A DNA stretch of 64,000 bases, from the NCBI RefSeq assembly GCF_003432075.1, contig NZ_QWBU01000009.1, positions 124,001 through 188,000 on the forward strand, written 5' to 3'. The position numbers and the translations under genes are program-made. The notes beneath the pieces are model-generated. The model was not told the DNA's origin. It saw only the letters and a list, made by a program, of their open reading frames with translations, and ran no database searches. This document shows, one piece after another, positions 29,322-52,168 of the stretch. Position 1 is the first letter of the stretch. Each line of letters begins with the position of its first letter. Origin of the DNA: Shinella sp. WSJ-2. GTDB lineage: Bacteria > Pseudomonadota > Alphaproteobacteria > Rhizobiales > Rhizobiaceae.

Positions 29322-29342
29322 TCCGCGGAACGCGACCGGCGC

Positions 29343-31306: not shown

Positions 31307-31861
31307 TCAATCTTCGCGGCGCTTTCTTCCCGTCACCATGGCGCGAACGAGGTTTTCCCGGTGCTCGACGCTGGCTAGAACAACGCCGGCGATATGCAGG
31401 GCGACCAGCCCGATGGTCGAATAGACAAGGGCCTTATGGACATCCTCCACCCAGCCGACACCCCAATAGGCATCCGTGGTCATCATATAGCCGGTGGTCA
31501 CGATGCCGGACACCGCCGCGAGCAACAGAACGACCATGGCGCCCCCCGCCGGATTGTGGCCGAGATACCGCTTGGCGCGGAAGGCGAGGCTGTCACGGAG
31601 GAACGCGAGAATCGTCGTAGGGGCATAGAGGAAATTGGCGAAGCGGGCGTGATGCGGCCCCAGCAGCCCCCAGACCAGGCGCAAGGCGATCAGCCCGGCG
31701 ATGGCATAGCCGGAGAGGATATGGGCCTTCTTCCATTCGTCGCCGGTGACGAAGGAGAAAACGAAGAGGCAGACCAGCGACCAGTGAAAGACCCGCACGA
31801 GCGGGTCCCACACCTTGACGCTTTCCCCCGCCCCGCTGGTTCGGGAGAGTGGCGCCATCAT
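31307..31861 (-). CDS. cytochrome b561 family membrane protein
   Basis: The ATG at 31861 overlaps the upstream PepSY gene stop (ATGA); an ATG follows directly at 31858. The 184-residue protein has four membrane segments with the family His pattern: VRVFHWSLV in segment 1, KKAHILSGY in segment 2, and VEDVHKALV and VALHIAGVV in the last two. It would bind two b hemes and move electrons between the quinone pool or cytoplasm and the periplasm. It is co-transcribed with the PepSY gene and both diverge from a two-component system. Confidence 0.9.
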   Translation of the reverse strand: MMAPLSRTSGAGESVKVWDPLVRVFHWSLVCLFVFSFVTGDEWKKAHILSGYAIAGLIALRLVWGLLGPHHARFANFLYAPTTILAFLRDSLAFRAKRYLGHNPAGGAMVVLLLAAVSGIVTTGYMMTTDAYWGVGWVEDVHKALVYSTIGLVALHIAGVVLASVEHRENLVRAMVTGRKRRED

Positions 31862-32136
31862 TCCGCTCCTTCCGAGCCGACCGGCTCGCCGGTCTGCGGA
31901 TTGAAGATCGTCTCGACCTTGGCGCCCTTGGCATCGATCGCATAGACTTCGTAGCAGCCGTTCTCGACCTTTATCCGCCGGACGTCGAGGCCCATCGCCT
32001 TGGCCTTGTCCTTCATGGCATCCTCGGTCATCCATTTGTCCTTCGGCACGTCGCAGCTCTTGCCCTCATCTTCGGCACGGGCCGCACCGGCGGCAAAAAG
32101 GCCGAGAAGGGCGGTTGCGAGAAGGATTGTCTTCAT
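31858..32136 (-). CDS. PepSY domain periplasmic protein
   Basis: The ATG at 32136 follows AAGGAGAAA. The 92-residue product has a signal peptide (ending GAARA) and one PepSY domain (MTEDAMKDKAKAMGLDVRRIKVENGCYEVYAID). Small PepSY proteins next to b-type cytochromes and OmpR-type two-component systems are widespread, and their role is probably periplasmic sensing or redox partner binding. The related protein at 40949 shares the DVPKDKW/VSMDRW Cys-containing start and GCYEV/GCYEI core. Confidence 0.88.
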   Translation of the reverse strand: MKTILLATALLGLFAAGAARAEDEGKSCDVPKDKWMTEDAMKDKAKAMGLDVRRIKVENGCYEVYAIDAKGAKVETIFNPQTGEPVGSEGAE

Positions 32137-32201
32137 GGAATTTCTCCTTGTGGCCGGCCGGAGCACCCTGCCCCGACGCTGGACGCACCATAGGCAGCCG
32201 T

Positions 32202-32243
32202 GGCTGAGCGATGGCTGACGGGAAATGTCAGCAAAATTTCAGC
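32202..32243. promoter_or_regulatory. paired direct repeats in the PepSY / two-component divergon
   Basis: GGCTGA occurs at 32202 and 32213, and its inverse TCAGC occurs at 32228 and 32239, each pair spaced exactly 11 bp. Eleven-bp spacing is typical of OmpR-type response-regulator sites. The same layout appears at 41397-41447 before the second module, so these are probably operators for the cognate regulators. Confidence 0.55.
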
Positions 32244-32265
32244 CTCGCCGTGCTAGGCTTCGAAC

Positions 32266-32598
32266 ATGCGTGTGCTCTTCATGTCCGTCATCACCCTTTC
32301 CCTTGCCGGGCTCCTTTCGGCCGGCGCAATCGCTCATGCAGACGATGAGGGGGACGACGCGGACGGACGCACCCTCGACGCCGTTCAGGAGGCGGTCGAG
32401 AAGGGCGCGATAAAACCGTTTTCCGAGTTGCGCGACATCGTCAGCCGGCGTTTCCGGGGCGATATCGTCCGCGTGGAACCACGCCGGAAGCACGGGATCT
32501 TCCTCTACAAATTCAAGGTTCTGTCGCCCGAAGGGCAGCTCGTCGAAATAGAGATCGACGCAGCGAGCGGCACGATCCTCGAAGTCGAGAACGAATGA
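32266..32598 (+). CDS. PepSY domain periplasmic protein
   Basis: This 110-residue protein has a signal peptide ending AIAHA, an acidic stretch (DDEGDDADG) and a PepSY domain (AVEKGAIKPFSELRDIVSRRFRGDIVRVEP) ending in the typical LVEIEIDAASGTIL. It is the first gene of the plus-strand operon and overlaps the response regulator by 4 nt, so it may modulate the sensor kinase from the periplasm. That link is inferred. Confidence 0.9.
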   Translation: MRVLFMSVITLSLAGLLSAGAIAHADDEGDDADGRTLDAVQEAVEKGAIKPFSELRDIVSRRFRGDIVRVEPRRKHGIFLYKFKVLSPEGQLVEIEIDAASGTILEVENE

Positions 32599-33257
32599 TG
32601 CGCATCCTGCTCGTTGAAGACGACCGGCTGATCGCCCGCGATCTCATCGCCCATCTGGAGCGGGCGGGCTATGTCGTGGACCATGCCCGCGACGGCGAAG
32701 ACGGCTGGTATCGCGGCGACAGCGAGGATTTCGCCGCCGCCATCCTCGATCTCGGCCTCCCCTCCATGGATGGCATGACGATCCTGAAACGCTGGCGCAA
32801 GGACGGGCGCCGCTTCCCCGTCCTCATCCTGACGGCGCGCGGCAATTGGGAAGAGCGCGTGGAAGGCATCGATGCCGGGGCGGACGACTATCTCGCCAAG
32901 CCCTTCCAGATCGCGGAAGTCCTCGCCCGCCTGCGCGCTATCCTGCGCCGCTATGCCGGCGAGCCGAGCCCCGTCCTCAGCGCCGGCGGCCTACACCTGG
33001 ACCCGCGCGTCAAATCGGTGACGCTTGGGGACCGGCCGGTCGACCTGACGCCGCTCGAATATCGCTGCCTGCACCATCTGCTCCAGAACCGCGAGCGCCA
33101 TGTCAGCCAGCAGGAACTGACCGAGCAGCTCTACGCCCAGGATTTCGACCGCGACAGCAATTCGGTGGAGGTGCTGATCGGCCGGCTGCGGCGCAAGCTG
33201 GGCAAGGCTTTCATCGAGACGCGCCGCGGCTACGGCTACCGGATCGCCGCCGCATGA
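32595..33257 (+). CDS. OmpR-type response regulator
   Basis: The 220-residue protein has a receiver domain with acidic pocket VEDD and phospho-acceptor Asp52 in ILDLGLPS, the LTA switch and the conserved Lys in YLAKPF. The C-terminal OmpR/PhoB winged helix includes SNSVEVLIGRLRRKLG and ETRRGYGYRI. It overlaps the preceding PepSY gene and the following kinase gene. It resembles QseB/PmrA regulators. Expected targets are the divergent PepSY-cytochrome genes through the 11-bp repeats. Confidence 0.94.
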   Translation: MMRILLVEDDRLIARDLIAHLERAGYVVDHARDGEDGWYRGDSEDFAAAILDLGLPSMDGMTILKRWRKDGRRFPVLILTARGNWEERVEGIDAGADDYLAKPFQIAEVLARLRAILRRYAGEPSPVLSAGGLHLDPRVKSVTLGDRPVDLTPLEYRCLHHLLQNRERHVSQQELTEQLYAQDFDRDSNSVEVLIGRLRRKLGKAFIETRRGYGYRIAAA

Positions 33258-34618
33258 GATGGCCAACCTCCATTCGCAGCCGCCTCCTGCTGATTTCCGC
33301 GTTGACCGTGAGCCTCGCGCTGACACTGACCGTCACCTTGCTGGTCTCGCTCTTCTCCAGCAACATCCGCAACCGCATCGATGCGGAGCTGACCAGCCAT
33401 ATCAACACGCTGGCCGGCGCGCTGTCCTTTGCCGCCGACGGCACGCTCCAGCGCCCGGAAAGCCCGCTCGACCAGCGCTTCGCCACGCCCTATGGCGGGC
33501 TTTACTGGCAGATCGTCGACGATGCGCGGGGGCAGACCGTCCGCTCGCTGTCGCTGTTCGACACGGCCCTTGCCCTGCCCATGGACAGGCACGCCGAGGG
33601 CGCGGTTCATCGCTACCTGCTGCCCGGCCCGGCCGGAAGTTCATTGATCGTCCTCGAGCGGCTCGTGCAGGTCGCTGCACCGGAGGGGAAACGCGCGCTG
33701 CGCATCGCTGTCGCCATCGACGCGCAAACGCTGGAGGAGGCCAGAGCCGCCTTCATCCGCGACATCCTGCCGGCCGTCGCCGGGCTCGGCGTCTTCCTCG
33801 TCGTCGCGTCGATCCTGCAGCTCACCCTCGGGCTGCGGCCGCTGGCGGCGCTGAACGAAGGGATCGTGCGCATCCGCGAGCGGCGTGCCAACCAGTTGAC
33901 CGGCGCCTATCCCAGTGAATTCCAGAGCACCGTGGCGGCAGTCAATGCGCTTCTGGATACGCAGGAAGCGATGATGGGCAAGGCGAGGAAGCGCGCGGCC
34001 GACCTCGCCCACGGCCTGCGCACGCCGCTGACGGTGCTCTCGAACGATGTCCTCACTCTGCGCGACAAGGGTGAGGCGGCCATGGCGGACGAACTGGAGC
34101 ACCTGGCGTCCGTCATGCGTAATCATGTGGAACGGGAACTGGCGCTTGCCCGCATCGCCGCCAGCGCGGACCTGCGCCGCTCGGACGCCGACGTAGCCAT
34201 GATCGTCGGCGAACTTGTGCGCATCCTCAAGCGCTCCCCTTCCGGCGAGCGGCTGCGGTTCGAGATCGACGGCCCAAACACCGAGACCGTGCCCATGGAC
34301 CCAGCCGACTTTCGCGAACTCATCGGCAACCTGCTCGAAAATGCCGTCAAATGGGCGACGGCCGAAATTCGCGTGCGCTGGAAGCGCAACGAAGACGGCC
34401 TGCGTCTGACGATCTCGGACGACGGTCCGGGCGTGCCGGAGCAAGAACTCGGCAATCTCACCCGCCGCGGCTGGCGTCTTGACATGGCATCCCCCGGCTC
34501 TGGCCTCGGTCTCTCCATCGTTCGTGAAATCGTCGATGTCTATCGCATCGGTTTTATGCTGCGGAACAGAAAGGCCGATAGCGGGCTGGAAGCCGAGCTT
34601 CTGTTCGCTCATACATGA
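33254..34618 (+). CDS. sensor histidine kinase
   Basis: The ATG at 33254 overlaps the regulator stop and gives 454 residues. Membrane segments at about 9-34 and 171-195 flank a periplasmic domain of about 135 residues. The H-box ADLAHGLRTPL holds His253. The ATPase domain has LLENAVKWA, DDGPGVP and GSGLGLSI. It phosphorylates the response regulator encoded upstream. The signal is unknown; iron, copper or redox state are plausible given the PepSY and cytochrome partners. Confidence 0.93.
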   Translation: MRWPTSIRSRLLLISALTVSLALTLTVTLLVSLFSSNIRNRIDAELTSHINTLAGALSFAADGTLQRPESPLDQRFATPYGGLYWQIVDDARGQTVRSLSLFDTALALPMDRHAEGAVHRYLLPGPAGSSLIVLERLVQVAAPEGKRALRIAVAIDAQTLEEARAAFIRDILPAVAGLGVFLVVASILQLTLGLRPLAALNEGIVRIRERRANQLTGAYPSEFQSTVAAVNALLDTQEAMMGKARKRAADLAHGLRTPLTVLSNDVLTLRDKGEAAMADELEHLASVMRNHVERELALARIAASADLRRSDADVAMIVGELVRILKRSPSGERLRFEIDGPNTETVPMDPADFRELIGNLLENAVKWATAEIRVRWKRNEDGLRLTISDDGPGVPEQELGNLTRRGWRLDMASPGSGLGLSIVREIVDVYRIGFMLRNRKADSGLEAELLFAHT

Positions 34619-35636: not shown

Positions 35637-36049
35637 TTATTCTGGCCCACGATCACCGTATTTGAGCAGCCCCTTCACCGCCTCGCCATCCAAAGCCTGC
35701 GCATCGAACAGCGCCGTGGTGAGCGCGTCGAGCTTGTCGCGGTTCTCACTGATGATTTCGACCGCCCTCGCAAATGCCCTTTCCAATCCCGCATGGATGC
35801 GGGCTGCGAGATCGGGATTACCGTCGAGCACGGCGGTCGGGTCCTTGTCATCGCGGTAGAGCAGCGGCTGAATCGCACCGAAGCCGAGGGAACGCTCCAT
35901 GGCGAGCGCCATCTTCGTTGCCCTGGCGAGACCGCTTTCGTCCGAACCAGCGGACCCGGCGGACACCTTGCCGACCACGATCTGCTGGGCGGCGCGCCCC
36001 GCCATGAGCATGGCAAGCATGTCCTTACGGTACCCCAGCGTATCAGCAT
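35637..36049 (-). pseudogene. 5'-truncated copy of FtsH-like M41 peptidase gene
   Basis: The encoded C-terminal half (LGYRKDMLAMLMAGRAAQQ through GEAVKGLLKYGD) closely matches the intact gene at 56271-57038. Similarity stops at about 36049, so the AAA lid and the zinc-binding HESGH motif are missing. The part still contains the third-ligand region (SGLARATKMA, where the Asp of SDLARAT has become Gly). An in-frame ATG at 36020 could give a 127-residue peptide, but it cannot be an active protease. Confidence 0.85.
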
Positions 36050-36419: not shown

Positions 36420-37442
36420 TCAGTCCGAATTGTGCGATTGCTTCAAACTTTGCCCATAAACCTCAGGAACCCTTCGACAGGTCTCCCGGCCTGCCGAAAA
36501 AAGAGGTCCTGTCGCTATCGGCCGGACTCCGCCCGAGGCGTCTCGCAGAAGAAACAGCACGTCTAGGCCAAGGTGCTGGGCAAGCTCGGTCCCGGACGTC
36601 GGACCGAGAACCGTCAACGCGGTCGCCCAGGCATCGGCTTCAGCGCAGGTTCGCGCGACGACCGTGACCGAAGCGGGCGACGACAGTAGCGGCGCACCGC
36701 GGCGCGGATTCATGGTGTGCGAGAGACGGCGACCGTTCACGACAGTCCAATGCCGGTAATCGCCAGAGGTGGCGACCGCAGCCTCCTGCAAGGCGAGGAC
36801 GGAGTGCGGCGCTCGACGGGCCGCGTCGGGACCTTCTACGGCAATGTTCCACGGTTCACCATCGGGGCGCAGACCGAGCGCCCTCATCTCGCCGTCAATT
36901 CCCACGAGGCCGGAAGTTATGCCGAAGCGCCCGAGGATCGCGACCAGCCGGTCGACGCCATATCCCTTGGCAATGCCGTTGAGGTCGATCGTGATCGGCG
37001 CGCGCTTGCGCACCGCCGCGCGAACAGGATCGAGCTCGAGCGCCACATGGGCGGGTTGGCGCGATGTCGCGAGTGCCTTCCGGATCAGGGCCCGGTCGGC
37101 CGCTTGCGGGCCAAAACCCCAGGCAACGACCGCATCGCCCACGCCGATATCGAAAGCTCCGCCCGACGCACGGCCGATTTCGAGCGCAAGATGCAGAACG
37201 TCTGCCAGACGCGCCGGCACATCGATCCAGTCGCCGACGGGACCGGCGTTCAACCTCATCAGAGCGCTGTCGGGCTTCCAGGTGGACATCTGCGCGTCCA
37301 CCTCGTCCATTTCCGCCTGAAGAGCGTGTCGAACCGGCTCCGGATCGAACCCTGCCTCCGTGTAGAACAGCGCGGACCAGCGCGTTCCCATGGTCGGTCC
37401 GTTGAGCGCGTGCCTCATCGGATCAGTAGACGTCTTCGACAT
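36420..37442 (-). CDS. apbE: FAD:protein FMN transferase (ApbE family)
   Basis: The ATG at 37442 follows GGAGGGACG and overlaps the upstream flavoprotein gene by 20 nt. The 340-residue protein shows ApbE features: GPTMGTRWS at the N-terminus, the GGAFDIGVGDAVVAWGFG stretch, IDLNGIAKGYGVDRL, and SGDYRHWTV with SHTMNPRRGAP. ApbE attaches FMN covalently to a Thr/Ser of target proteins. No signal peptide is evident, although the likely target is periplasmic; secretion before or after flavinylation is unresolved. The DUF2271 protein of the same operon has a matching acceptor motif. Confidence 0.93.
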   Translation of the reverse strand: MSKTSTDPMRHALNGPTMGTRWSALFYTEAGFDPEPVRHALQAEMDEVDAQMSTWKPDSALMRLNAGPVGDWIDVPARLADVLHLALEIGRASGGAFDIGVGDAVVAWGFGPQAADRALIRKALATSRQPAHVALELDPVRAAVRKRAPITIDLNGIAKGYGVDRLVAILGRFGITSGLVGIDGEMRALGLRPDGEPWNIAVEGPDAARRAPHSVLALQEAAVATSGDYRHWTVVNGRRLSHTMNPRRGAPLLSSPASVTVVARTCAEADAWATALTVLGPTSGTELAQHLGLDVLFLLRDASGGVRPIATGPLFSAGRETCRRVPEVYGQSLKQSHNSD

Positions 37443-39639
37443 AGCGTCCCTCCGCCTTGAGCAGGGCCGGCGTCAACCCTACCGGCGCGAGAATCTCGGC
37501 AAGCGCCGCCGAAACGCCGACGGCCATATCCCGCCCACCACAGACCATGATGCGCGCGCCGCTGCGGATCAGGGCTGCGATCTGGGCGGCATCCTCAAGA
37601 AGAGCGTGCTGGACATAGCGCGGCATCCGCCCGCGCGAGCAGGCCCCGACGAGCCGGTGAAGGCGCCCTTCGCGATGCCAGCGCGTCAGTTCGTCCTTGT
37701 AGAGGAAATCGCTGGCAGGATGACGCATTCCGAAGAACAGGTGGATCGGACGGCGACGCGCATTGGCGCGCACGAAGCCCGCCAGCGGCCCTATCCCTGT
37801 TCCAGCTCCGATCAGGATCAACGGTATCCTCCTCCTGCCGGCATGGAAGCCGGGATTGGTTCGGATGAATGCGCGAACGGCACATCCTGGCTCCAGATTG
37901 AAGAGCTGCCCGGAACAGAGCCCCGCCGGATGCTTCTTCACGACGATCTCGATGAAGCCATCGCGCCGTCCCGAAGCCAGCGAGTAGAACCGTGGAACGG
38001 ACGAGCCCTCGGGCAGCACGCCGAGAAGATCGCCTGCCGAATATCGACCGAAGCCACGCCCGGCCAACCGATGCCAGAACGGGACTTTGGGCAGCACGAA
38101 CCGCAGGATCACTGTCGGAGCTTGCACCTCCGCGCCGTATTCGCGTCGCGAAACGAGGGTCAATGGGGAGGCCGCCAGCAAGGCTGGCCGATGGACAAGC
38201 TCCAGCCCGATCCCTATTGCCTCGCCCAGCGATCGTCCCCAACGGGCAAAATCCTGCGGCGACTGCCGGTCGACGGTTTCGTATGGGATGAGCGTGCTCC
38301 ACCCTCGCGCCTCGGCGGCCCTCGCAACGACCTGGGCAAAAGCGCAGTAGGCCGGGAAGCTGCGGTCACCGAAGCCGAGCACGGCGATCGGAATGGTTGG
38401 CTCTACCGGCAGGGTTTGCAGGCGATCGAGAAACCCCCGCGCCGAAGCGGGCGCATCGCCATCGCCATAGGTTGCCGCAAGAATGAGAACGCGCCGGGCA
38501 TGCCGGTAGCGTTCAGGATCGAATGACGACATCGGCGCGGTGTGAACCGCCTGCCCGAGCTTCGTCAGCGCGGCGTGCAGTGTCGCAGCGAAGCTCCATG
38601 TGCTGCCGCTCTCGCTGCCGACAAGCAGGATCGTTTCCGCACGTCCAGCCGTTACATTGCCGTGAATCCGTGGCCGCCCGCGCCGACCCGCCAGCCACAG
38701 GATGAGGCCGGTGCCCGCCATCGCCGGCACGCCGAGCGCCATCATGCCGAGCACGAGGCCCAAGGTGGCCGCGCCTCGACCGGTATGCAGCATATAGATA
38801 GTCTCCGAGAGACGCTGCCATCCGGTCAGGTCGCTCCAGGCCAGCAGCACGCCGGTGCCCTGATCCAGATAGCCCGTGCCGCGATCCGTCTTCAGCGTGA
38901 AGACATCCGTCGCATCGGCCGGATCGGGAAACGCCAGGCTGCGCAGTTCGGTGACCGGTGTCCGTTTCAGCAGATCCATATGCGATGCGGCCATGCCGGT
39001 CCGGCCGCTCGCCTCGATGTGGGCGACGGGAGATGTGGCCGCGTCGGGAAGGAGATCGAATGTCGACGCCGTCATCCACAATGCGGTGGCCGAGGACAAG
39101 ACGAGGCCTGCGACGGCGACGCGCGCGATCTCGACATGCAATCTTCCGGCGAGCGGCCCGCGTATCGGCGCGAACCATCGCCGCCAGCCGCCGGCCCTGC
39201 GGGCGACGAGCATAGTGCCGGACACAGCCAAGACCAGCATGGCGGCAGCGCCCACTGCCGCTGCGATACGCCCGCCGTCACCGAGAAAGAGCGACCGGTG
39301 CAGACCGGTAAGCCACTGCTCGACGGCATTCGGATCGCTGGAGGCGACACCCAGCCCTGTTGCGGGATCGATGATGGCGGCCTGAGGCGCCCCACCCTCA
39401 AACCAGTAGGCGGTGATCTTGCCGGAGGGCGCGCGACGTATCTGTTCTATTTGAGGGTGGATGGCGAGGATACGTCCGGCCAGCGTCCCGACGGAAAGCC
39501 CTGCCTCGGCCTGCGGGGCGGACAACCGTTCGGCGGCGGGAAACAGCGAGAGTGCTGCACCGCTAAGGCTCAAGACCAGCAGAAAAAGAGCGGCCAGAAG
39601 GCCTGGCCAGCGATGGATGACACGGATCATGTCGTCCAC
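37423..39639 (-). CDS. PepSY membrane protein fused to flavodoxin and ferredoxin-NADP reductase domains
   Basis: The 738-residue protein starts with a PepSY_TM region (membrane segment about 10-33, further segments near 128-146, 172-190 and 296-318) with periplasmic PepSY loops. From about residue 340 a flavodoxin-like domain follows (LLVGSESGSTWSFA, AATYGDGDAP). The C-terminus is a ferredoxin reductase/sulfite-reductase-alpha type module with RFYSLASG for FAD and GAGTGIGPLAGF and VCGGRDMA for NADPH. It would carry electrons from NADPH in the cytoplasm through FAD and FMN to the membrane. It lies 3 nt downstream of the DUF2271 gene and overlaps apbE. Confidence 0.9.
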   Translation of the reverse strand: MDDMIRVIHRWPGLLAALFLLVLSLSGAALSLFPAAERLSAPQAEAGLSVGTLAGRILAIHPQIEQIRRAPSGKITAYWFEGGAPQAAIIDPATGLGVASSDPNAVEQWLTGLHRSLFLGDGGRIAAAVGAAAMLVLAVSGTMLVARRAGGWRRWFAPIRGPLAGRLHVEIARVAVAGLVLSSATALWMTASTFDLLPDAATSPVAHIEASGRTGMAASHMDLLKRTPVTELRSLAFPDPADATDVFTLKTDRGTGYLDQGTGVLLAWSDLTGWQRLSETIYMLHTGRGAATLGLVLGMMALGVPAMAGTGLILWLAGRRGRPRIHGNVTAGRAETILLVGSESGSTWSFAATLHAALTKLGQAVHTAPMSSFDPERYRHARRVLILAATYGDGDAPASARGFLDRLQTLPVEPTIPIAVLGFGDRSFPAYCAFAQVVARAAEARGWSTLIPYETVDRQSPQDFARWGRSLGEAIGIGLELVHRPALLAASPLTLVSRREYGAEVQAPTVILRFVLPKVPFWHRLAGRGFGRYSAGDLLGVLPEGSSVPRFYSLASGRRDGFIEIVVKKHPAGLCSGQLFNLEPGCAVRAFIRTNPGFHAGRRRIPLILIGAGTGIGPLAGFVRANARRRPIHLFFGMRHPASDFLYKDELTRWHREGRLHRLVGACSRGRMPRYVQHALLEDAAQIAALIRSGARIMVCGGRDMAVGVSAALAEILAPVGLTPALLKAEGRYVEDVY

Positions 39640-39642
39640 CGC

Positions 39643-40110
39643 CTAGAAGGAGTAGGCAACGGTCGAGACGTAGCGTCGACCGCGAACGGTCGTCTTCGTG
39701 CCCGCAGTGGTCAGGGGAACGGCGACCTCGTTGGGGCTGTCACGCATGTCCTCCACGGCTGCGTCGACATGCAGCGTGTAACCTGCGTCGAAAAGCGCAT
39801 CGGCAAGGTCGAGCGAGATCTCCAGCGTGCGCCCCGCACCGACGCTAGCGCCGGTAATGCCGTCGATACCGGCGCGGCCGCCAGTGGCGCGATACCAGCC
39901 CGATAGATGCTCGTAATATTTGGACTTGCCGCCAGCGACCCAGAGCGTGCCGGCATATTTGCCCTGGGGATCGGTGACGTAGAGCGCGAGATAGGCGCCG
40001 TCGCCGCCATAGTTGGTCAGCGTTGTGGTCAATGTCACCGGCCGGGCCATGGCGAGGCCAGGGAACGTGAGGGCGGTTGTCATGGCGAGAGCTGCGAGAA
40101 GCGATTTCAT
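39643..40110 (-). CDS. DUF2271 periplasmic protein with ApbE flavinylation motif
   Basis: The ATG at 40110 gives 155 residues with a signal peptide (about 1-22, ending LAMARP). The mature protein is a DUF2271 domain (LTNYGGDGAYLALYVTDPQGKYAGTLW split by a flexible loop). Residues 83-89 read DGITGAS, which fits the ApbE consensus Dxx(S/T)GA(T/S), so Ser89 is a candidate FMN attachment site. It is encoded directly before the PepSY-flavoreductase and apbE, and may be the periplasmic electron acceptor of that reductase. Its own substrate is not known. Confidence 0.85.
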   Translation of the reverse strand: MKSLLAALAMTTALTFPGLAMARPVTLTTTLTNYGGDGAYLALYVTDPQGKYAGTLWVAGGKSKYYEHLSGWYRATGGRAGIDGITGASVGAGRTLEISLDLADALFDAGYTLHVDAAVEDMRDSPNEVAVPLTTAGTKTTVRGRRYVSTVAYSF

Positions 40111-40330
40111 GTCGGCTTGCCTTCTGCGAGGAAACGGTGTCCGGGTCGTCGCAGAGCGCCGACCCGTCCTCGTCACTGTGGCGAAGCCGCCTGAGGGCTG
40201 CCTGACGGCCATCGGGATTTTCCGTCAGCACTTCGTCAGGAAACATCGGACACGGTCAGGTCCGCAGCAGATGCAGGAGCGACCGGCCTGTCGGCAGGCC
40301 AGCCGCGAAAGCTCCGGGGACTGAACAAGA

Positions 40331-40373
40331 CGGCAGCCAGCCACGCTCCGCTCAGGCGCGTGGCTGGCTGCCG
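40331..40373 (-). terminator. long hairpin between cytochrome b561 and DUF2271 genes
   Basis: A perfect 16-bp stem (40331-40346 with 40358-40373) encloses an 11-nt loop and begins 5 nt after the cytochrome stop on the minus strand. The following minus-strand bases TCTTGTTCAG are moderately T-rich. It probably ends or attenuates the PepSY-cytochrome transcript, giving the DUF2271-reductase-apbE genes partly separate control. Confidence 0.65.
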
Positions 40374-40378
40374 CTGCG

Positions 40379-40894
40379 TTAGCGCGGAGACATCCGCTGC
40401 AACGTCCCGTCGCGCAGGACGTACTGGTGCCAGACCGCCATCGCGGCATGCAGTCCGGCAAGGTAGAGGATGATCGTGCCGGCATTCTCATGAATGTCCG
40501 CGATCAGGCCCGGTGCGCCCTGCACCCGCTCGGTGATCGCCGGAAGCTGGAAGCCGAAGAAAGAAACGGGAACACCGAGGCGCGACGCCGCGTACCAACC
40601 GCTCAACGGCAGGGCAATGAGGAACAGATACAACAGCACATGTCCGGCTTTGACGGCAAGGGCGAGACGGCCATTGGACTGCGGCGCGTCCGGGGTTCCG
40701 CCCGCAAGGCGCAGGATCAAGCGCGGAAGCACCAGGACGAGCACGGCCAACCCGAACGAGAAATGCAGCAAGGGCGGGTTTTCGGCCATATGACGGCCTC
40801 CCGTCGAGGTCAGCCAGGCCCCGAGGATCAGCAGGGCTGTCAGCCAGTGGATGACGATCATGCTTCTGGAATAACGGGCCGGATCATGAGGCAT
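40379..40894 (-). CDS. cytochrome b561 family membrane protein
   Basis: The 171-residue protein follows an AAGGAGAT ribosome site and has four membrane segments with heme-ligand candidates in MIVIHWLTAL, LLHFSFGLAV, ADIHENAGTI and AGLHAAMAVWHQYV. It is of the short CybB type, related to superoxide- or quinone-linked b561 proteins. It lies 54 nt downstream of a PepSY gene, and it may exchange electrons with the flavoprotein system encoded after the hairpin. Confidence 0.9.
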   Translation of the reverse strand: MPHDPARYSRSMIVIHWLTALLILGAWLTSTGGRHMAENPPLLHFSFGLAVLVLVLPRLILRLAGGTPDAPQSNGRLALAVKAGHVLLYLFLIALPLSGWYAASRLGVPVSFFGFQLPAITERVQGAPGLIADIHENAGTIILYLAGLHAAMAVWHQYVLRDGTLQRMSPR

Positions 40895-40948
40895 GGCGGG
40901 ATCTCCTTGCGACGGTCGCAGCGCTTGAGCGATAGCGAGATGGGATTG

Positions 40949-41344
40949 CTACTTGATGGTGGTCTTGGGCCGCACGGTCGTCCCGAGCAGGGTGTTGGAG
41001 GATGTTCCGCCTACGGTGTCGTTCTGCGAGGCTGGCGGCCGCTGACGCCTCGATCCGTGACGGTCGTCATCGCGATCCCTGTGCCGGAACTTGACGATTT
41101 CGAGGGTTTCCGGATCGACCTTGGCCTTGAAAGCCAGGCCATTCCGGTCGGTTCCCCGGATTTCGTAACAGCCGTCATCGATCTTGATCCTGGCAACGGT
41201 CCAGCCTTGACTGGCGGCCATTGTTTCGACCGCTTCCCGCGGCTTCCATCGATCCATCGAGACATGGCAATCGTCGTCGTCAGCCTTGGCGATACCGGGA
41301 CCGGAAAACGCCAGAACGAGGATCGCGGCCAGCAAATGTTTCAT
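40949..41344 (-). CDS. PepSY domain periplasmic protein with basic tail
   Basis: The ATG at 41344 gives 131 residues with a signal peptide (ending GIAKA) and one PepSY domain (EAVETMAASQGWTVARIKIDDGCYEIRG). The C-terminal about 40 residues are rich in Asp, Arg and Ser/Thr and are not part of the domain. It is a sibling of the protein at 31858, diverging in the same way from a two-component system. Confidence 0.87.
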   Translation of the reverse strand: MKHLLAAILVLAFSGPGIAKADDDDCHVSMDRWKPREAVETMAASQGWTVARIKIDDGCYEIRGTDRNGLAFKAKVDPETLEIVKFRHRDRDDDRHGSRRQRPPASQNDTVGGTSSNTLLGTTVRPKTTIK

Positions 41345-41396
41345 CGTTTCATTGTTCCTGATCAACGCGCTTTCGGGGGGAACCATGGCACGCTCT

Positions 41397-41447
41397 CCTG
41401 ACGAACGCCTGAAGCAGCGATGGGGCGGTCTTCAGCAAACCGACAGC
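41397..41447. promoter_or_regulatory. paired direct repeats in second PepSY / two-component divergon
   Basis: CCTGA occurs at 41397 and 41408, and TCAGC/ACAGC at 41432 and 41443, each pair 11 bp apart. This copies the arrangement at 32202-32243, with the inner gap about 10 bp longer, that is, one helical turn. These are likely OmpR-type regulator sites for the adjacent system. Confidence 0.5.
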
Positions 41448-41490
41448 ATCGGACGCTAGGCAGGAGGATGGCGAGACGGGTGACCCTGGG

Positions 41491-42150
41491 ATGAGAGTTC
41501 TACTGATCGAAGACGATGCTATCCTCGGAAAGGCCGTGCGCGAGCAGGTTGCCGCCCTCCACTCGGTGGACTGGGTGACACGGCTCGATGCGGCGCGCGA
41601 ACATCTCCAAAGCGCGGCATACGATCTCATCCTGCTCGATCTGATGCTCCCGGACGGATTGGGCATCGCCTTTCTCAAAAAGCTTCGAGCCGAGGGCAGC
41701 GTGACGCCGGTCATCATCCTGACGGCGCTCGACCAAATCTCCGACCGCATCGCGGGCCTCGATGCCGGCGCCGACGACTACATGATCAAGCCGTTCGATC
41801 TGTCGGAACTCTCCTCGCGGCTGAATGCGGTGGCGCGGCGATACAGCGGCAACCCGAATCCTCTCATCGAGATCGGCGACCTGCGCATCGATCTCGCCGC
41901 CCGGACCGTGATGCACGGCGCGCGCCCTGTTGAGCTTACCGGTCGCGAATGGGCGCTGTTCGAAGCATTTCTGCAGCGGCCCGGCATCGCGATGACCAAG
42001 GCGCAGCTCGAAGATCGGCTCTATGCATTCGGCGCAGAGGTCGAGAGCAATACGATCGAGGTTCACGTCAGCAGACTGCGCAAGAAGCTCGGCCACGGCG
42101 CGATCGATACGGTGCGGGGCATCGGGTATCGTCTTGGAACGGCAAGATGA
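41491..42150 (+). CDS. OmpR-type response regulator
   Basis: The 219-residue protein has receiver acidic residues IEDD, phospho-acceptor Asp50 in LILLDLMLPDG, and the conserved Lys in YMIKPF. The C-terminal winged helix contains SNTIEVHVSRLRKKLG and DTVRGIGYRL. It is paralogous to the regulator at 32595 and lies divergent from the PepSY gene. It overlaps the kinase gene by 4 nt. Confidence 0.94.
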   Translation: MRVLLIEDDAILGKAVREQVAALHSVDWVTRLDAAREHLQSAAYDLILLDLMLPDGLGIAFLKKLRAEGSVTPVIILTALDQISDRIAGLDAGADDYMIKPFDLSELSSRLNAVARRYSGNPNPLIEIGDLRIDLAARTVMHGARPVELTGREWALFEAFLQRPGIAMTKAQLEDRLYAFGAEVESNTIEVHVSRLRKKLGHGAIDTVRGIGYRLGTAR

Positions 42151-43475
42151 AGCGGCCCAGGAGCCTGCAATGGCGGCTCTCGCTATCGCTGGGGCTAGGG
42201 CTAACGGTGTTATGGGCACTTGCCGCGGTCGTGACCGCGCAGATGCTGCGCCACGAAATGGACGAGGTGTTCGACAGCGCCCTCGAAGAGACGGCGCAAC
42301 GCATCCTGCCGCTTGCGGCGATCGAGATCATCGGCCGCGATGCCGACGACACCGAACAGCGCGTTGCCACGCTCCGCCAGCACGACGAGTATTTCACCTA
42401 TGTCGTGCGCGATGCCGCGGGCAAGGTTCTGCTGCGATCGCACAGCGCCGATCTCGCGGCATTCCCGCCGTTTTCCGGAATGGGCTTTGCCACGACGCCG
42501 ACGCACCGCCTCTACTCCGACGCGACCCTCCAGCAGAATCTGACCATCACCATCGCGGAGCCCCTGTCGCATCGCCGGATGACCGCCGGGCGACTGTTGC
42601 TCGGGCTGAGCCTGCCGCTGGCCGTCATTGTCCCGCTCGGCTTGATCGGCATCTGGGTCATTGTCCGGCTGTCCATGACCCCGGTTCGGACCTTCCGCTC
42701 GCAGATCGAGGGGCGCGGCGGCGGTGATTTGACACCCATCGACGCGGAGGACCTGCCCTCGGAGATCGGCCCCGTCGCCAAAGCGGTCAACCACCTCCTG
42801 GACCGATTGACGCGTACCTTGCAGGCCGAGCGCAGCCTGGCGGCCAAATCGGCCCATGAGCTGCGGACACCGGTGGCTGCTGCACTGGCGCAGGCGCAGC
42901 GCATGATCGCGCAAGCGCCGGACGACGCCACGCGCGAGCGCGCCGAGGATATGCAGACCGCCTTGCGGCGCCTTTCCCGCCTCACCGAGAAACTCATGCA
43001 ACTGGCGAGAGCCGAGGGCGGACGCCTTCTCGCCGAGGCGCCGGTCGAGATCGGCGCCATCCTGCGAATGGTTGTGAGCGAATTCGACGGGCAGGCCGAG
43101 ACTGCAGGGCGCATCGACCTGACACTGCCAGACGCGCCGGTATTCGCAAGCATCGACGCCGACGCCTTCGCCATCCTGGCCCGGAACCTGATCGAAAACG
43201 CCCTCAAGCATGGCGTGCGGGACGAACCGGTCGCCGTCACCTTGTCGGCAGACGGCTGTCTGCGCGTCACGAACGCCGGCCCGGTCGTGCCTTCCGCAGT
43301 GCTTGCGCGGCTGAGCGAGCCCTTCGAGCGCGGTCAGGCTCTGGTGCGGGGGGCCGGCCTGGGGCTCGCCATCGCCCGGACCATTGCTGCCGGAACAAAT
43401 GGACGGATAGAACTCCAATCTCCCGCAAGCGGCAGGATTGACGGGTTTGAGGCAAGGTTCTTCATAGACAAATGA
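42147..43475 (+). CDS. sensor histidine kinase
   Basis: The ATG at 42147 overlaps the regulator stop and gives 442 residues. Membrane segments at about 12-32 and 148-175 bracket a short periplasmic domain of about 110 residues. A HAMP-like region leads into the H-box KSAHELRTPV with His237. The catalytic domain has LIENALKHG and GAGLGLAI. It is the QseC-like partner of the regulator upstream. The sensed signal may relate to flavin/redox activity of the neighbouring module (inference). Confidence 0.93.
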   Translation: MKRPRSLQWRLSLSLGLGLTVLWALAAVVTAQMLRHEMDEVFDSALEETAQRILPLAAIEIIGRDADDTEQRVATLRQHDEYFTYVVRDAAGKVLLRSHSADLAAFPPFSGMGFATTPTHRLYSDATLQQNLTITIAEPLSHRRMTAGRLLLGLSLPLAVIVPLGLIGIWVIVRLSMTPVRTFRSQIEGRGGGDLTPIDAEDLPSEIGPVAKAVNHLLDRLTRTLQAERSLAAKSAHELRTPVAAALAQAQRMIAQAPDDATRERAEDMQTALRRLSRLTEKLMQLARAEGGRLLAEAPVEIGAILRMVVSEFDGQAETAGRIDLTLPDAPVFASIDADAFAILARNLIENALKHGVRDEPVAVTLSADGCLRVTNAGPVVPSAVLARLSEPFERGQALVRGAGLGLAIARTIAAGTNGRIELQSPASGRIDGFEARFFIDK

Positions 43476-43519
43476 TCATCGACATCGACGCCAGATGCTG
43501 AAAGGCAACTCGGGAGACC

Positions 43520-44785
43520 ATGGACACTGACGCCCTGCTCAGCCGCCTTGCGGTATCGCTTTCGATCGGTCTGCTGATCGGCCTGGAGCGTGGATGGCGT
43601 ACCCGCAACGAGGAAGACCATCTGCGCGCGGCAGGTCTACGAACGTTCGCGCTGACCGGTCTCACCGGCGGCATTACCGGCGCCCTGGCCCGGCAGTTCG
43701 ACTCTGGCCTCGTGATCGGTCTTGTTTTCCTCGGGTTCACCGCGGCATTCGCCTCCTACCACTGGCTCGAAGCGCGGGCCGAGCGAAATTACAGCGCGAC
43801 ATCCGTCGTCGCCGGCATAGCCACGTTCCTGCTGGGAACGCTTGCCGTCGTCGGCGACCTTGCAGCCGCCATCGCCGGGGCTGTTGCCACGGCTGTGCTG
43901 CTTGCCCTGCGCGAGCCGTTGCATCGTTGGGTCGCGTCGCTGAGCTGGAATGAGATCCGGTCGGGCCTGACGCTTCTGGCAATGACCTTTCTCATGCTGC
44001 CGATCCTGCCGAGCAGGCCGGTCGATCCCTGGGGCACCGTCAATCCATATGAGATCTGGTTGCTGACCATCCTGATCGCCGCGGTCTCCTTCGCCGGCTA
44101 CGTCGCCGTCCGCGTGTTCGGGGACCGGCTTGGCGTCCTGATGACGGCGATCGCGGGCGGGCTCGCCTCTTCGACAGCGACGACCTTGACGCTGGCAAGG
44201 CTTGCCCGCCGGCACCCCGAGTCCAGCACGCTGCTTTCCTGTGGCGTGCTTCTTTCCGGCTTGACCATGATCATCCGCGTTGCAGTCGTGGCGACGGCCT
44301 TGAACCCAAGCTTGCTTCCGCATCTCAAATGGCCATTGCTCATCGGCGGTGGCGTGCTCGCCATCGGCGCCGGGCTCCTGCTGCTACAAAGTCGCGGCTC
44401 CTCCGAACAGCCGGAACTTACGATCACCAACCCGCTGGAATTGGCGCCTGCCCTGAAAATGGGGACACTCATCACCGTGGTCATGGTGGTGTCGCATCTG
44501 CTTCAGCAGTCGTTCGGGAATGCGGGCGTTCTGGTGACCGCCGCCGCTTCGGGCATCGCCGATGTGGATGCGATTTCGATCTCCATGGCCCGCCTGGCGT
44601 CGCATTCGATCGAGCCCGGTCTTGCGGCAGATGCGATCCTGATCGCCGTGGCCATGAATACACTTGTCAAAGCCGTGATGGCGGCATGGGTCGGAGGCTC
44701 AAGGATCGGTGGGCCCGTCAGCGCCCTTAGCGTGCTCGGCCTTGCGGCCGGCATGGCAGCGTCTCTGTATCTTGGCCGTTCGTGA
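43520..44785 (+). CDS. MgtC/SapB family protein with DUF4010 domain
   Basis: This 421-residue membrane protein has about twelve segments. The N-terminal part carries the MgtC motif SLSIGLLIGLERGW and RTFALTGLTGGITG; the C-terminal part is DUF4010 (GLASSTATTLTLARLARRHP, ASGIADVDAISISMARL). Homologues are larger than MgtC proper (about 230 residues), and their function is unclear; links to Mg2+ or metal-ion handling are guesses. It follows the kinase gene after 44 nt with a GGGAGA ribosome site. Confidence 0.88.
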   Translation: MDTDALLSRLAVSLSIGLLIGLERGWRTRNEEDHLRAAGLRTFALTGLTGGITGALARQFDSGLVIGLVFLGFTAAFASYHWLEARAERNYSATSVVAGIATFLLGTLAVVGDLAAAIAGAVATAVLLALREPLHRWVASLSWNEIRSGLTLLAMTFLMLPILPSRPVDPWGTVNPYEIWLLTILIAAVSFAGYVAVRVFGDRLGVLMTAIAGGLASSTATTLTLARLARRHPESSTLLSCGVLLSGLTMIIRVAVVATALNPSLLPHLKWPLLIGGGVLAIGAGLLLLQSRGSSEQPELTITNPLELAPALKMGTLITVVMVVSHLLQQSFGNAGVLVTAAASGIADVDAISISMARLASHSIEPGLAADAILIAVAMNTLVKAVMAAWVGGSRIGGPVSALSVLGLAAGMAASLYLGRS

Positions 44786-44863
44786 ATTGAGGGGGAGATT
44801 GCGGCCGGGCATGCGGCCACACTCGGGCCTTGATGGGTCGGTCTGGTCGGCTGTAAGCGATGG

Positions 44864-44898
44864 TTTCGGGGAGAGTGGTGTCGCTGATCTCCCCGAAA
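44864..44898. terminator. bidirectional hairpin between convergent genes
   Basis: An 11-bp perfect inverted repeat (TTTCGGGGAGA / TCTCCCCGAAA) with a 13-nt loop lies between the MgtC-like gene and the convergent YdcH-like gene. The A/T ends on both sides suit termination in both directions. Confidence 0.6.
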
Positions 44899-44943
44899 TC
44901 GGGTAATGCAAGCGGGGCAGCAAAACGCGGCCTCGCAGTCCCC

Positions 44944-45183
44944 TCACGCGTTGCGGAGCGATGCCACGATCTTGTCTTTTAACATCAGCCGCTGGCGGCG
45001 CAGATCGGCCTCGGCTGCTTCGGAAATGGCGTCGAGACGTGTCTCGGACCGATGAATCTTGTCGTTCACCGCGTCATATTCCGTCAAAACATGCGCAAAC
45101 TCCGGGCTTTTCGCCTTCAGGGCATGAATGGCGTCCGTCTGGTCTGGGAATTCGTCGCCAAGAGTGTGAGGTGTATTCGACAA
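44944..45183 (-). CDS. YdcH/DUF465 family small protein
   Basis: A TTG start at 45183 follows AAAGGAGAAAG and gives 79 residues. The protein is an antiparallel helical hairpin typical of DUF465: KSPEFAHVLTEYDAVNDKIHR followed by an EADLRRQRLMLKDKI helix. The family is uncharacterised. It lies 35 nt downstream of the hypothetical gene at 45219. Confidence 0.82.
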   Translation of the reverse strand: MSNTPHTLGDEFPDQTDAIHALKAKSPEFAHVLTEYDAVNDKIHRSETRLDAISEAAEADLRRQRLMLKDKIVASLRNA

Positions 45184-45218
45184 GGTTCTTTCTCCTTTTC
45201 TGCAATTTCGCCCCGGCG

Positions 45219-45620
45219 TCAGGGCTTTTCGACGCGCGCGACCTGATAGGTGACAAACGCGCCTTCCCGCCCGACCGAGATGTATTCGCCAAGACGGAAG
45301 CACTCCTCGCCCAGGCGGAAACCGATCTCGTCGTCCCGATCACCCGGCTCGTAATCGAAATACCACTGCCCGCCGGGCTTGCGCCGCAACAGCCCGATGC
45401 GGGCCGTCTTACCGTCCCGAAAATATCGGACGCGACAGGCGTCGCGAGATTTCTTCCATTCCAGCGGATCAAGGAATCCTTCGTGGTTGAGCGGAACCAG
45501 AAGATCATAGCCTTCTTCCCGATCTCCCTCCGGATGGTCTTTGCCGCGAGCGAGAACCAACCGCACGTGGTGGAAACTTGAGGGTAGTTCTTGTGCCTTG
45601 ACCACGATCCGATCCTTCAT
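45219..45620 (-). CDS. conserved hypothetical protein
   Basis: This 133-residue soluble protein is not recognised. It is rich in charged residues, with HHVRLVLARGKDHPEGDREEGYDLLVPL near the N-terminus and an apparently beta-rich C-terminus (GQWYFDYEP, YQVARVEKP). A GGGGGGAA site precedes the ATG. It forms a likely operon with the YdcH-like gene. Genes of this sort are seen near stress-protein clusters, but no function is assigned. Confidence 0.7.
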   Translation of the reverse strand: MKDRIVVKAQELPSSFHHVRLVLARGKDHPEGDREEGYDLLVPLNHEGFLDPLEWKKSRDACRVRYFRDGKTARIGLLRRKPGGQWYFDYEPGDRDDEIGFRLGEECFRLGEYISVGREGAFVTYQVARVEKP

Positions 45621-45719
45621 TTCCCCCCCTGATACACCATTGGCAAAGGAACGTTCTTGATCTGGCGCAAGTGAGACGAGGCATGTGTTATCCGATGCCG
45701 GCGACTATCCGGAACGGTC

Positions 45720-45936: not shown

Positions 45937-47916
45937 TCATGGTGTGGTGGGCGAGGTCGCCCGCGATCCGGACGTGCTGCCCGTTTGATCCTGGAACTCA
46001 TATTGACGAGAATGGTGGAGATAGCCGTCGGTGGCGCGGATTCGGTCCGACAGGAGGCGTAGGCCATTCAGCACGACCAGAACGGTGCCGCCTTCGTGTC
46101 CGATCACCGCGAGCGGAAGCGGCAGGTCGAAGAACAGGCCGCCGGTCACAAGTACCAGCATGGCGCCGATCGCGAGGACGAGATTCTGTCGGATGATGAC
46201 GGCCGTCCGCCGTGCAAGCCGGTGCGCATCGGCCAGCTTCTTCATGTCTTCCGACAGCAGGGCGACGTCGGCGGCCTGCAGTGCGACGTCCGACCCCGCC
46301 GCGCCCATGGCGATGCCGACGTCGGCGCGAGCCAATGCGGCGGCATCGTTGACGCCATCGCCGACGAAAGCGACCTTGCCATCACGCGCGAGGTCGCCGA
46401 CCTGGAGCACCTTGTCCTGCGGCAGCATCTCGGCATGAACCTCGCCGGGCGCAAGGCCAAGTTCCGTACCGATGCGCAAGGCCACCGGCCTGCGGTCGCC
46501 GGTCATCATCACGATGCGGTTGACGCCACCGGCGCGAAGCGCGGCCAGCGCCGGGGCTGAGCTGGCTCTTGCTTCGTCCGCAACACTGACCGCCCCCAGA
46601 ACGGTCGCACCGCGCCCAAGATAGACCACGGTCTGAGAACTGTCGGCGAGTTCACGGAACGCCGGATCATCGACGGAGGCGCCCATGTCCTCGACGAGGT
46701 GAGCGTTGCCGGCCCATATCGGGCCGAAGGAATCGTAGCCGACGATGCCGGCGCTCGGATGCGACGTAACGTCCACGACCGCCACCGGCTCAACGCCATG
46801 AACCAGGGCCTCACGACGGATGGCGGCAGCGATGTGATGCTCGGAATGCGCTTCCAGCCCGGCAAGGAGCGAAAGGAAACGGCGATCCTCACCATCCAGG
46901 GCGACAATTCGCGTAACCTCTGCACGTCCATTGGTCAGGGTCCCGGTCTTGTCGAACGCGAAGGTATCGACAGCGGCGAGCGTTTCGAGCGCACCGCCCC
47001 CCTTGAACAGCACGCCGCCTCGCGCCGCGGCGGAGAGCGCCGACAGGATCGCTGCCGGGACTGAGATGACGATCGCGCAGGGACTGGCGGCGACCAGGAG
47101 TGTCGCGGCCTTGTAGAGGGCCTGTTCCCAGTCGCGGCCAAGCCAATAGAAGACCGCAAGGGCCAGAGCGGAGCCCAGCAGGACACCGACCGTATAACGC
47201 TGGCCGAACCACGCGCTGAAGCGCTCGGACGGCGCCTTCGCTTCCTGCGCCTCGGTGACGAGCTGGATCATGCGCGCGATCGTGCTGTCGCCGACCGTCC
47301 TGGTGACGGTCACGTCAAGGACCCCGTCAAGATTGACGGTCGCCTCGAAAACCTGCTCGCCCGGTTCCTTGGAGACCGGCATCGACTCACCGGTGATATT
47401 GGCTTCGTCGATTCCGCCACGGCCATGCAGGATCACACCGTCGGTCGGCACGCGTGCGCCCGGACGCAGCACCACCACATCGCCGACGGCAAGCTCCGCA
47501 GCAGGAACCTCCACCGTGGTCCCTTCCTCTCCTTTGCGGAAAGCCGTCTCCGGCCGGAGCGCCATGAGCGCCTCAACAGCCCTGCGCGCGCGTCCCAATG
47601 CCTGGTGCTCAAGCGTGGTCGACACGCTGAACAACGTCAGCAACACCGCGCCTTCGAACGGCGCCCCGACGATCGCCGCCGCCACGGCCGCGACGACCAT
47701 CAGAAGATCGATGTCGAGGATATGATCGCGCCACAACGCCGTCAGGGCGCTCCAGGTGGCGGGAAGCCCTCCGGCCAAATAGACCATCGCCAGACCGGGA
47801 GATCTTAGAATGGAAAGGCCTTCCGCCGGCGGCCAGGTCCCGGCGACGGCCAGCATCATCCCGAGGACCGCAATTGCCGACATGACGGTCTGGAAATCGA
47901 GCGACAGACGTTTCAT
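45937..47916 (-). CDS. P1B-4-type heavy-metal (probable iron/cobalt) efflux ATPase
   Basis: The ATG at 47916 is 2 nt after the VIT stop and gives 659 residues. No N-terminal metal-binding domain is present. Motifs are TGES at 175-178, the ion-path SPC at 278-280, DKTGT with phospho-Asp322, GDGVND and HEGGT at 607-611. SPC with HEGGT is the signature of P1B-4 pumps, which export Fe2+ or Co2+. Co-expression with a VIT-type transporter behind an Irr box supports iron. A degraded copy lies at 29343-31026. The last about 30 residues are low in hydrophobicity and variable. Confidence 0.92.
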   Translation of the reverse strand: MKRLSLDFQTVMSAIAVLGMMLAVAGTWPPAEGLSILRSPGLAMVYLAGGLPATWSALTALWRDHILDIDLLMVVAAVAAAIVGAPFEGAVLLTLFSVSTTLEHQALGRARRAVEALMALRPETAFRKGEEGTTVEVPAAELAVGDVVVLRPGARVPTDGVILHGRGGIDEANITGESMPVSKEPGEQVFEATVNLDGVLDVTVTRTVGDSTIARMIQLVTEAQEAKAPSERFSAWFGQRYTVGVLLGSALALAVFYWLGRDWEQALYKAATLLVAASPCAIVISVPAAILSALSAAARGGVLFKGGGALETLAAVDTFAFDKTGTLTNGRAEVTRIVALDGEDRRFLSLLAGLEAHSEHHIAAAIRREALVHGVEPVAVVDVTSHPSAGIVGYDSFGPIWAGNAHLVEDMGASVDDPAFRELADSSQTVVYLGRGATVLGAVSVADEARASSAPALAALRAGGVNRIVMMTGDRRPVALRIGTELGLAPGEVHAEMLPQDKVLQVGDLARDGKVAFVGDGVNDAAALARADVGIAMGAAGSDVALQAADVALLSEDMKKLADAHRLARRTAVIIRQNLVLAIGAMLVLVTGGLFFDLPLPLAVIGHEGGTVLVVLNGLRLLSDRIRATDGYLHHSRQYEFQDQTGSTSGSRATSPTTP

Positions 47917-47918
47917 CG

Positions 47919-50579: not shown

Positions 50580-50612
50580 GTCTCCGCTCCTGGCCGCCCC
50601 GATTGATGTCTG

Positions 50613-51434: not shown

Positions 51435-51494
51435 GGGACTGTTCCTCCGTCCTGTCTGTCGCGGCAAAGGATAGCCCCGCCGGGGGACGGCGCC

Positions 51495-52153: not shown

Positions 52154-52168
52154 GCCGGGCCTTGCGGC

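Follow-up and report, generated by a model that had tools for sequence, protein, structure and literature searches.

A signal-less ApbE encoded beside an exported DUF2271 protein: a candidate case of flavin attachment in the cytosol before Sec export

Meheust et al. (2021) showed that a DUF2271 protein is flavinylated by its own ApbE, and the sections of their survey that deal with such proteins report covalent flavin mononucleotide (FMN) on the last Ser/Thr of the A. ursilacus DUF2271 protein, catalogue PepSY-like gene clusters containing DUF2271 and ApbE (with a NAD-binding domain in 1077 genes) and argue for iron reduction by these clusters (PMC8238504). Here we describe a locus of this kind from Shinella sp. 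WSJ-2, in a stretch of 64,000 nucleotides (nt) of contig NZ_QWBU01000009.1 (positions 124,001 to 188,000; hereafter the window, from whose first letter all coordinates are counted): a single operon on the minus strand (36420-41344) that encodes a PepSY_2 protein, a cytochrome b561, a DUF2271 protein, a fusion of PepSY_TM, flavodoxin and reductase (FNR) domains, and ApbE. Since both DUF2271 flavinylation and PepSY/DUF2271/ApbE clusters have been published (PMC8238504), the system is not new: its core is already known, and the new part is the question of where ApbE is located.

The surveyed clusters resemble the present one in combining PepSY_TM, DUF2271 with an [ST]GA[ST] motif and ApbE, often with a NAD-binding domain, and periplasmic iron reduction has been proposed for them; the present locus differs from them in the fusion of flavodoxin and FNR to PepSY, in its regulator/kinase pair and PepSY_2, and in the absence of a signal peptide from ApbE (PMC8238504). 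The passages of the survey on PepSY contain no discussion of ApbE location in the clusters. In the window PF03929 lies within five genes of ApbE and DUF2271, and at least one target carries a signal, as expected of PepSY-like flavinylation. DUF2271 and PepSY also occur together in the Caulobacter operon CCNA_03155-03159, mutants of which are less fit under EDTA; that operon differs in being a direct Fur target and in containing DUF4198, and the passages of the paper that describe it name no two-component pair (PMC11870441). A 2025 review of ApbE, in its parts on location, has secreted targets modified by secreted ApbEs, while the cytosolic ApbEs that it names have cytosolic targets. No mention of a cytosolic ApbE that flavinylates an exported target was found in those parts of the open-access literature on DUF2271 and on signal-less ApbEs that bear on the matter.

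The original prediction had assembled ApbE, the PepSY-flavodoxin-reductase fusion, cytochrome b561 and DUF2271 into one gene set, and each of these genes lies where it was placed and has its Pfam match; in a profile search of the window all five operon genes score far above the Pfam cut-offs. The DUF2271 gene (39643-40110, minus strand; PF10029, 123.4 bits against a cut-off of 27.3) encodes 155 residues with a signal peptide of the Sec (general secretory) type, whose cleavage site, read by eye, falls between AMA and RPV after residue 22, and with the motif DGITGAS at residues 83-89. Both features had been predicted, and both are confirmed with the ATG at 40110. Because this ATG is preceded by AGAAGG, the alternative longer start at 40212 appears less likely. 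G87, A88 and S89 are invariant in an alignment of 29 sequences that includes the window's (A1), and Ser89 (codon at 39844-39846, minus strand) is the predicted FMN acceptor: the protein has PF10029 over cut-off together with [ST]GA[ST], as an ApbE substrate should, and its motif is the sole [ST]GA[ST] among the operon and regulator proteins of the window. No chain in a search of solved structures matched DUF2271 at E 0.01.

For comparison, 120 stretches around DUF2271 matches were fetched from a set of 61 genomes of relatives, a phylum sample (398 genomes) and an order sample (297 genomes). Together with the window these form a first set of 121 loci, which were classified by profiles built from the window proteins. 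In 61 of them, the window included, PepSY_TM is fused to flavodoxin and/or FNR (the fusion type), usually with a kinase/regulator pair and PepSY_2 adjoining and with ApbE after the fusion; 56 loci of another class have no such PepSY_TM fusion, and in four further loci ApbE and DUF2271 are one protein. Within the first set, four loci from the window's own genus are almost identical to the window (99.2-99.9% in DNA); the set does not include G642 and G670, whose partial DUF2271 matches barely pass the cut-off. A second, named set consists of the best 80 of 543 loci by DUF2271 alignment and, having been drawn as best matches, comprises close kin; six of the 80 share DUF2271 DNA with the first set. 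The strict [ST]GA[ST] motif is present in all 61 fusion-type loci (as [ST]GAS in every one), in 28/56 other-class loci and in none of the four ApbE-DUF2271 fusion loci. GITGAS is found in 80/80 named loci, and other-class loci without the strict motif show variants such as VTGPT or VSSAT.

Signal peptides, called by a home-made hydropathy rule with controls, separate enzyme from substrate: in fusion-type loci a signal is present in 0/59 ApbEs and in 59/61 DUF2271 proteins, and in named loci in 0/79 and 80/80 respectively (0/73 and 74/74 once the six loci shared with the first set are removed). As a negative control, response regulators gave a signal in 0/63 cases; as a positive control, second ApbEs of the same genomes (40 of 44 outside the operon class plus the window genome's own) gave a signal in 39/41, of which 23 are Tat-like (twin-arginine), 8 lipoprotein and 8 Sec. 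Some of these second ApbEs we take to be NosX. NosX (with NosR) and the lipoprotein ApbEs that go with NqrC/RnfG belong to the same transferase family as the operon ApbE but differ from it in being exported and in having FMN_bind targets. In other-class loci a signal was called in 3/35 ApbEs, among which that of L050 (a lipoprotein) alone is convincing, and in 53/56 DUF2271 proteins. Throughout the fusion-type and named loci the operon ApbE has neither of the marks of an extracytosolic ApbE, a signal peptide or a lipobox.

The absence of a visible signal peptide from ApbE had already been remarked upon in the original prediction, which raised as a side question where flavinylation happens. The remark is borne out as a property common to a clade, not an accident of annotation, and the side question is the real finding. 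An annotation error at the ApbE start was considered and rejected: the frame in the window opens just 10 codons ahead of the ATG, and no candidate start yields a signal in any of the 59 fusion-type ApbEs. The window ATG, at 37442, is embedded in the 3' end of the fusion gene (an overlap of 20 nt), and the C-terminus encoded there, GRYVEDVY, is conserved. Since the ATG thus sits within a conserved gene end, the ApbE N-terminus (MSKTSTD) is probably fixed, with no space left for a signal. A quick tree of 58 rows (two short ApbEs, L106 and L122, left out; L034 and L042 coded as signal-less although the rule calls a signal from their TTG and GTG starts) places the fusion-type ApbEs in a single group (SH-aLRT 100) among signal-bearing ApbEs. 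This placement suggests loss of the signal in the fusion-type clade rather than repeated error.

The window ApbE (36420-37442, minus strand; 340 residues; PF02424, 258.8 bits; nearest solved chain 5mgy, E 3e-54) is a predicted flavin transferase, with PF02424, the catalytic His and the Mg-site Asp/Thr all present, and among fusion-type ApbEs these residues are kept in 57/59 (His), 57/59 (Asp) and 56/59 (Thr); we take the His to be catalytic and the Asp and Thr to form the Mg site. ApbEs were counted in 54 of 59 fusion-class genomes, spanning 36 genera: G588 and G608 (75 and 71% complete) were omitted, and the window genome and G233 and G509 (the latter two with no ApbE at the locus) were searched separately. 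In 17 of the 54 the operon ApbE is the single match, and G040 adds only broken extra pieces. None of these 18 genomes (G690 is 83% complete, the others at least 93%) has FMN_bind, while a second ApbE is found in each of the 33 genomes with FMN_bind and in three without it (Fisher p 1.4e-11, in a test that covers FMN_bind among ApbE targets, not DUF3570 or NqrB/RnfD). The split implies that DUF2271 is paired with the signal-less ApbE, and FMN_bind with the additional ApbEs; the window genome has two ApbEs, the second with a signal, and one FMN_bind protein. Among the 61 relatives, a fusion-type ApbE (over 277 bits; next best 196) is found in exactly the 12 genomes with an intact DUF2271. In G010 (L030, L015) DUF2271 is in two pieces on two contigs, one of them at a contig end with a TGA, and there is no fusion-type ApbE, which is consistent with joint loss or with a broken assembly.

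According to the reading that we prefer, the signal-less, dedicated ApbE would act in the cytosol, where FAD (flavin adenine dinucleotide) is available, attaching FMN to the precursor of DUF2271, which would then pass through Sec in its flavinylated form. That the reaction can run in a cytosol follows from the co-expression of a signal-truncated ApbE and DUF2271 in E. coli, which, in the section of the survey on that experiment, gave flavinylation (PMC8238504). Export of a folded, flavinylated DUF2271 by Tat was also considered and is not supported: the signal looks like a Sec signal, and 55/59 fusion-type n-regions have no RR, KR or RK pair, which makes Tat unlikely. In two of the four pair-bearing n-regions (L026, L123) the arginines lie upstream of the MK start common in relatives; one of the 59 proteins was typed as Tat by the hydropathy rule, and a Brucella homologue is named 'Tat pathway signal protein' in one paper, by automatic annotation.

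The electron route of the original prediction, from NADPH through FAD and FMN to FMN-DUF2271, fits the domains, even if the system that it presented had been published. The fusion (37423-39639, minus strand; 738 residues; PF03929, PF00258 and PF00175 at 108.8, 47.2 and 47.3 bits; GTG start, with an ATG three codons in) has flavodoxin and FNR domains, as predicted for a diflavin NADPH reductase (CysJ/CPR-like). The best solved-structure matches of its FNR part are NADPH-cytochrome P450 reductases, with sulfite reductase alpha lower down, and NCBIfam cysJ stays below its cut-off, so that the protein is not CysJ itself. Four PepSY histidines of the membrane domain, candidate heme ligands, are kept in 60-61 of the 61 fusions. 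FoxB of Pseudomonas aeruginosa likewise has its two heme sites on conserved histidines, and the four histidines here match in number the two bis-histidine hemes that the structural part of the report on this PepSY protein describes (PMC11334425). NADPH would reduce the FAD of the FNR domain, and the flavodoxin FMN would take up the electrons, which would then cross the membrane via hemes on the four histidines and reach FMN bound covalently to Ser89 of periplasmic DUF2271, which would in turn reduce a periplasmic acceptor, ferric iron or ferric chelates being the lead candidates from the literature. FoxB itself is not known to have a fused flavodoxin/FNR or a flavinylated partner. [ST]GA[ST] occurs in 14/61 fusion proteins and is therefore not conserved there. 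In L029 (G006; 7347-9562, minus strand) the PepSY-flavodoxin-FNR gene is split into two overlapping frames, either a broken gene or a sequencing error. The cytochrome b561 (40379-40894, minus strand; 171 residues; Ni_hydr_CYTB, PF01292, 91.8 bits) is an optional part of the operon, present in a minority of loci (12 matches across the whole first set), and where present may provide an optional second heme input. The small PepSY_2 protein (40949-41344, minus strand; PF13670, 88.0 bits) has a signal-like N-terminus, MKHLLAAI...

Two genes that the original prediction did not mention are transcribed divergently from the operon (41491-43475): an OmpR-family response regulator of the PmrA/QseB-like kind (41491-42150, plus strand; PF00072, PF00486; NCBIfam PmrA 207 bits, below cut-off) and a QseC/CzcS-like sensor histidine kinase (42147-43475, plus strand; NCBIfam QseC 156.8 bits and heavy-metal sensor kinase 132 bits, both below cut-off). 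A pattern search of the window found the direct repeat CCTGA-N6-CCTGA 80 nt before the DUF2271 start (40190-40205, plus strand) and between PepSY_2 and the response regulator (41397-41412, plus strand). These two copies compare with a mean of 0.07 in 100 shuffles of the window, one of which had two. In the first set, perfect 6-mer repeats at 11-nt spacing are present in 24 of 52 regulator gaps, the window's own excluded (shuffles: mean 3, maximum 6), against 0 to 9 of 52 at the other spacings from 8 to 15. With one mismatch or none, and within 200 bp of the regulator start, the window pattern, which was chosen post hoc, after repeat analyses that included the 52-gap scan, occurs in 67/75 named loci with a divergent regulator (9 exact) and in 62/69 after removal of those shared with the first set; shuffles, which like those for the 52 gaps preserve base composition only, gave a mean of 0.73 of the 75. 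A direct repeat of 11-nt period beside an OmpR-family gene is the operator type to be expected, and the response regulator probably binds this one. The window genome holds 14 exact copies (two in the operon), compared with none of a control pattern; no common function was evident near the other 12 in a look at raw frames with no family search, and overlapping copies lie at C12:173374-173400. No paper on PepSY with a sulfite reductase flavoprotein and a two-component system was found in the open-access literature.

Several observations weigh against cytosolic attachment. The A. ursilacus ApbE had a signal peptide, which the survey authors truncated, as stated where the construct is described (PMC8238504), so that at least one DUF2271-linked ApbE is exported. 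ApbE-DUF2271 fusion proteins carry a signal in 4/4 cases, and an exported ApbE is encoded elsewhere in 21/21 tested genomes whose DUF2271 lacks a neighboring ApbE (30 of 33 ApbE matches had a locus and were typed, 26 with and four without a signal; G010, with its broken DUF2271, was excluded): cytosolic attachment is thus not required by the DUF2271 domain. Both points are weakened by the motif, which in its strict form is missing from all four fusions and from 28/56 other-class loci. Two fusion-type loci (L094, L126) have no adjoining ApbE, and their genomes have exported ones; the window ApbE has N in HxxDP where most have D (D 45, N 9 of 59); and the signal rule, home-made and not SignalP, missed 2/61 fusion-type DUF2271 proteins. 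The open-access literature yielded no report of a flavin-bearing chain exported by Sec, and nothing useful on bulky groups passing SecYEG. Some of these points would suit periplasmic flavinylation by a different, exported ApbE, such as the signal-bearing second ApbE of the window genome, with the operon ApbE being incidental. As a general answer this was rejected, since in 18 of 54 genomes the operon ApbE is the sole intact one and DUF2271 is still kept with its acceptor motif; moreover ApbE stands in the locus in 59/61 fusion-type cases with its active-site residues conserved, and we judge the explanation improbable. We give about the same low credence to the possibility that ApbE reaches the periplasm by an unrecognized route and acts there as usual: a missing recognized signal does not prove a cytosolic location, but the failure of every candidate start in 59/59 cases and the start of the window ApbE inside the upstream gene, with a frame that opens 10 codons earlier, speak against it, as does L138 (G456; 4073-6616, minus strand). 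Here, beside a DUF2271 gene, an open frame of 848 residues joins PepSY_TM, flavodoxin and ApbE with no FNR match, and because ApbE follows flavodoxin in this polypeptide it lies on the side taken as cytosolic; among the matches listed from 397 genomes of the order there is no second such fusion, which also tells against our reading. Less probable still is that the operon ApbE modifies a cytosolic target and not DUF2271. For this there is the precedent of Klebsiella, in which, according to the part of the report on that pair, a cytosolic ApbE without a signal peptide serves a soluble fumarate reductase (PMC12052999). That target stays in the cytosol, whereas here the target is exported, the sole [ST]GA[ST] of the operon proteins is that of DUF2271, and fusion-type ApbE and intact DUF2271 coincide in the same 12 of 61 relatives.

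A further alternative leaves shuttle and flavinylation as they are and changes their purpose, from iron to envelope stress or metal detoxification under the QseC/CzcS-like kinase. It is a serious contender, if one to which we give somewhat less than even odds: the PmrA/QseB-like two-component pair is local and has its own repeat, the kinase also matches heavy-metal sensor kinases (below cut-off), and the block lies near genes for a heavy-metal P-type ATPase, Usp and FtsH-like proteins, but published PepSY/DUF2271 clusters, which we take as belonging to the other class, are described in the relevant passages as Fur-repressed or iron-responsive in Shewanella, Caulobacter and Alteromonas. Taken as a whole, we think it fairly probable that the operon specifies a two-component-regulated electron shuttle from NADPH to the periplasm, and that its exported protein receives the flavin in the cytosol, ahead of passage through Sec. 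The sequences themselves show the gene set, the acceptor motif, the conserved opposition of ApbE and DUF2271 in their signal peptides and the repeat; covalent flavin, the timing of its attachment, the flow of electrons, their acceptor and the binding of the regulator are inferred. The simplest account of the family is that DUF2271 is modified in two ways, by a dedicated cytosolic ApbE or by a shared periplasmic one, of which the second is the less certain, as the strict motif is absent from half of the other-class proteins.

Operon and regulators together (36485-45702) appear, from DNA comparisons, to be a horizontally moving block. Kaistia defluvii/adipata (L185, L186) shares 9221 bp with it at 95.7% identity and Brucella tritici (L187) 8520 bp at 96.0%; seven other loci (L020, L021, L022, L024, L182-L184), among them Rhizobium sp. 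GN54 and a Devosia metagenome-assembled genome, match at 99.2-99.9% along 9.7-18.6 kb. The neighborhood contains a heavy-metal P-type ATPase (45940-48087; TIGR01525, 556 bits) with SPC and HEGGT motifs, presumably marks of a P1B-4 (Fe/Co) exporter. A partial related copy with 77% DNA identity lies at 29443-31028, and a HAD hydrolase domain is found in 29237-30502. Beside the operon, a peptidase M41 (FtsH C-terminal) fragment (35640-36020) is about 89% identical in DNA over 395 bp to 56274-57038, itself part of a longer M41 gene that adjoins an AAA gene (57038-58996). At 31310-34618 lies another module, with cytochrome b561, PepSY_2, a response regulator and a kinase but no DUF2271. An island-like set at 26445-28483 and 48732-58996 comprises phosphate acetyltransferase, acetate kinase, cation ATPase, Usp, beta-CASP nuclease, phosphoketolase, M41 and AAA genes; the best NCBIfam match of the beta-CASP metallo-hydrolase (52172-53704) is type VII CRISPR Cas14 (372.6 bits, below the cut-off of 800).

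A conserved pair of enzyme and substrate that signal peptides place on opposite sides of the membrane leaves three options: a chain that already bears flavin passes through Sec, ApbE is exported by an unknown route, or the substrate has been wrongly assigned. We consider it slightly better than an even chance that in this clade an exported protein receives covalent flavin in the cytosol and is threaded through Sec with the flavin in place, and that DUF2271 modification therefore exists in two compartmental versions. If this is true, genome-based prediction of flavinylation would change, a signal on ApbE being no longer required; it would point to a way in which bacteria that lack FMN_bind systems produce periplasmic flavoproteins, and would provide a way to pre-load exported proteins with flavin.

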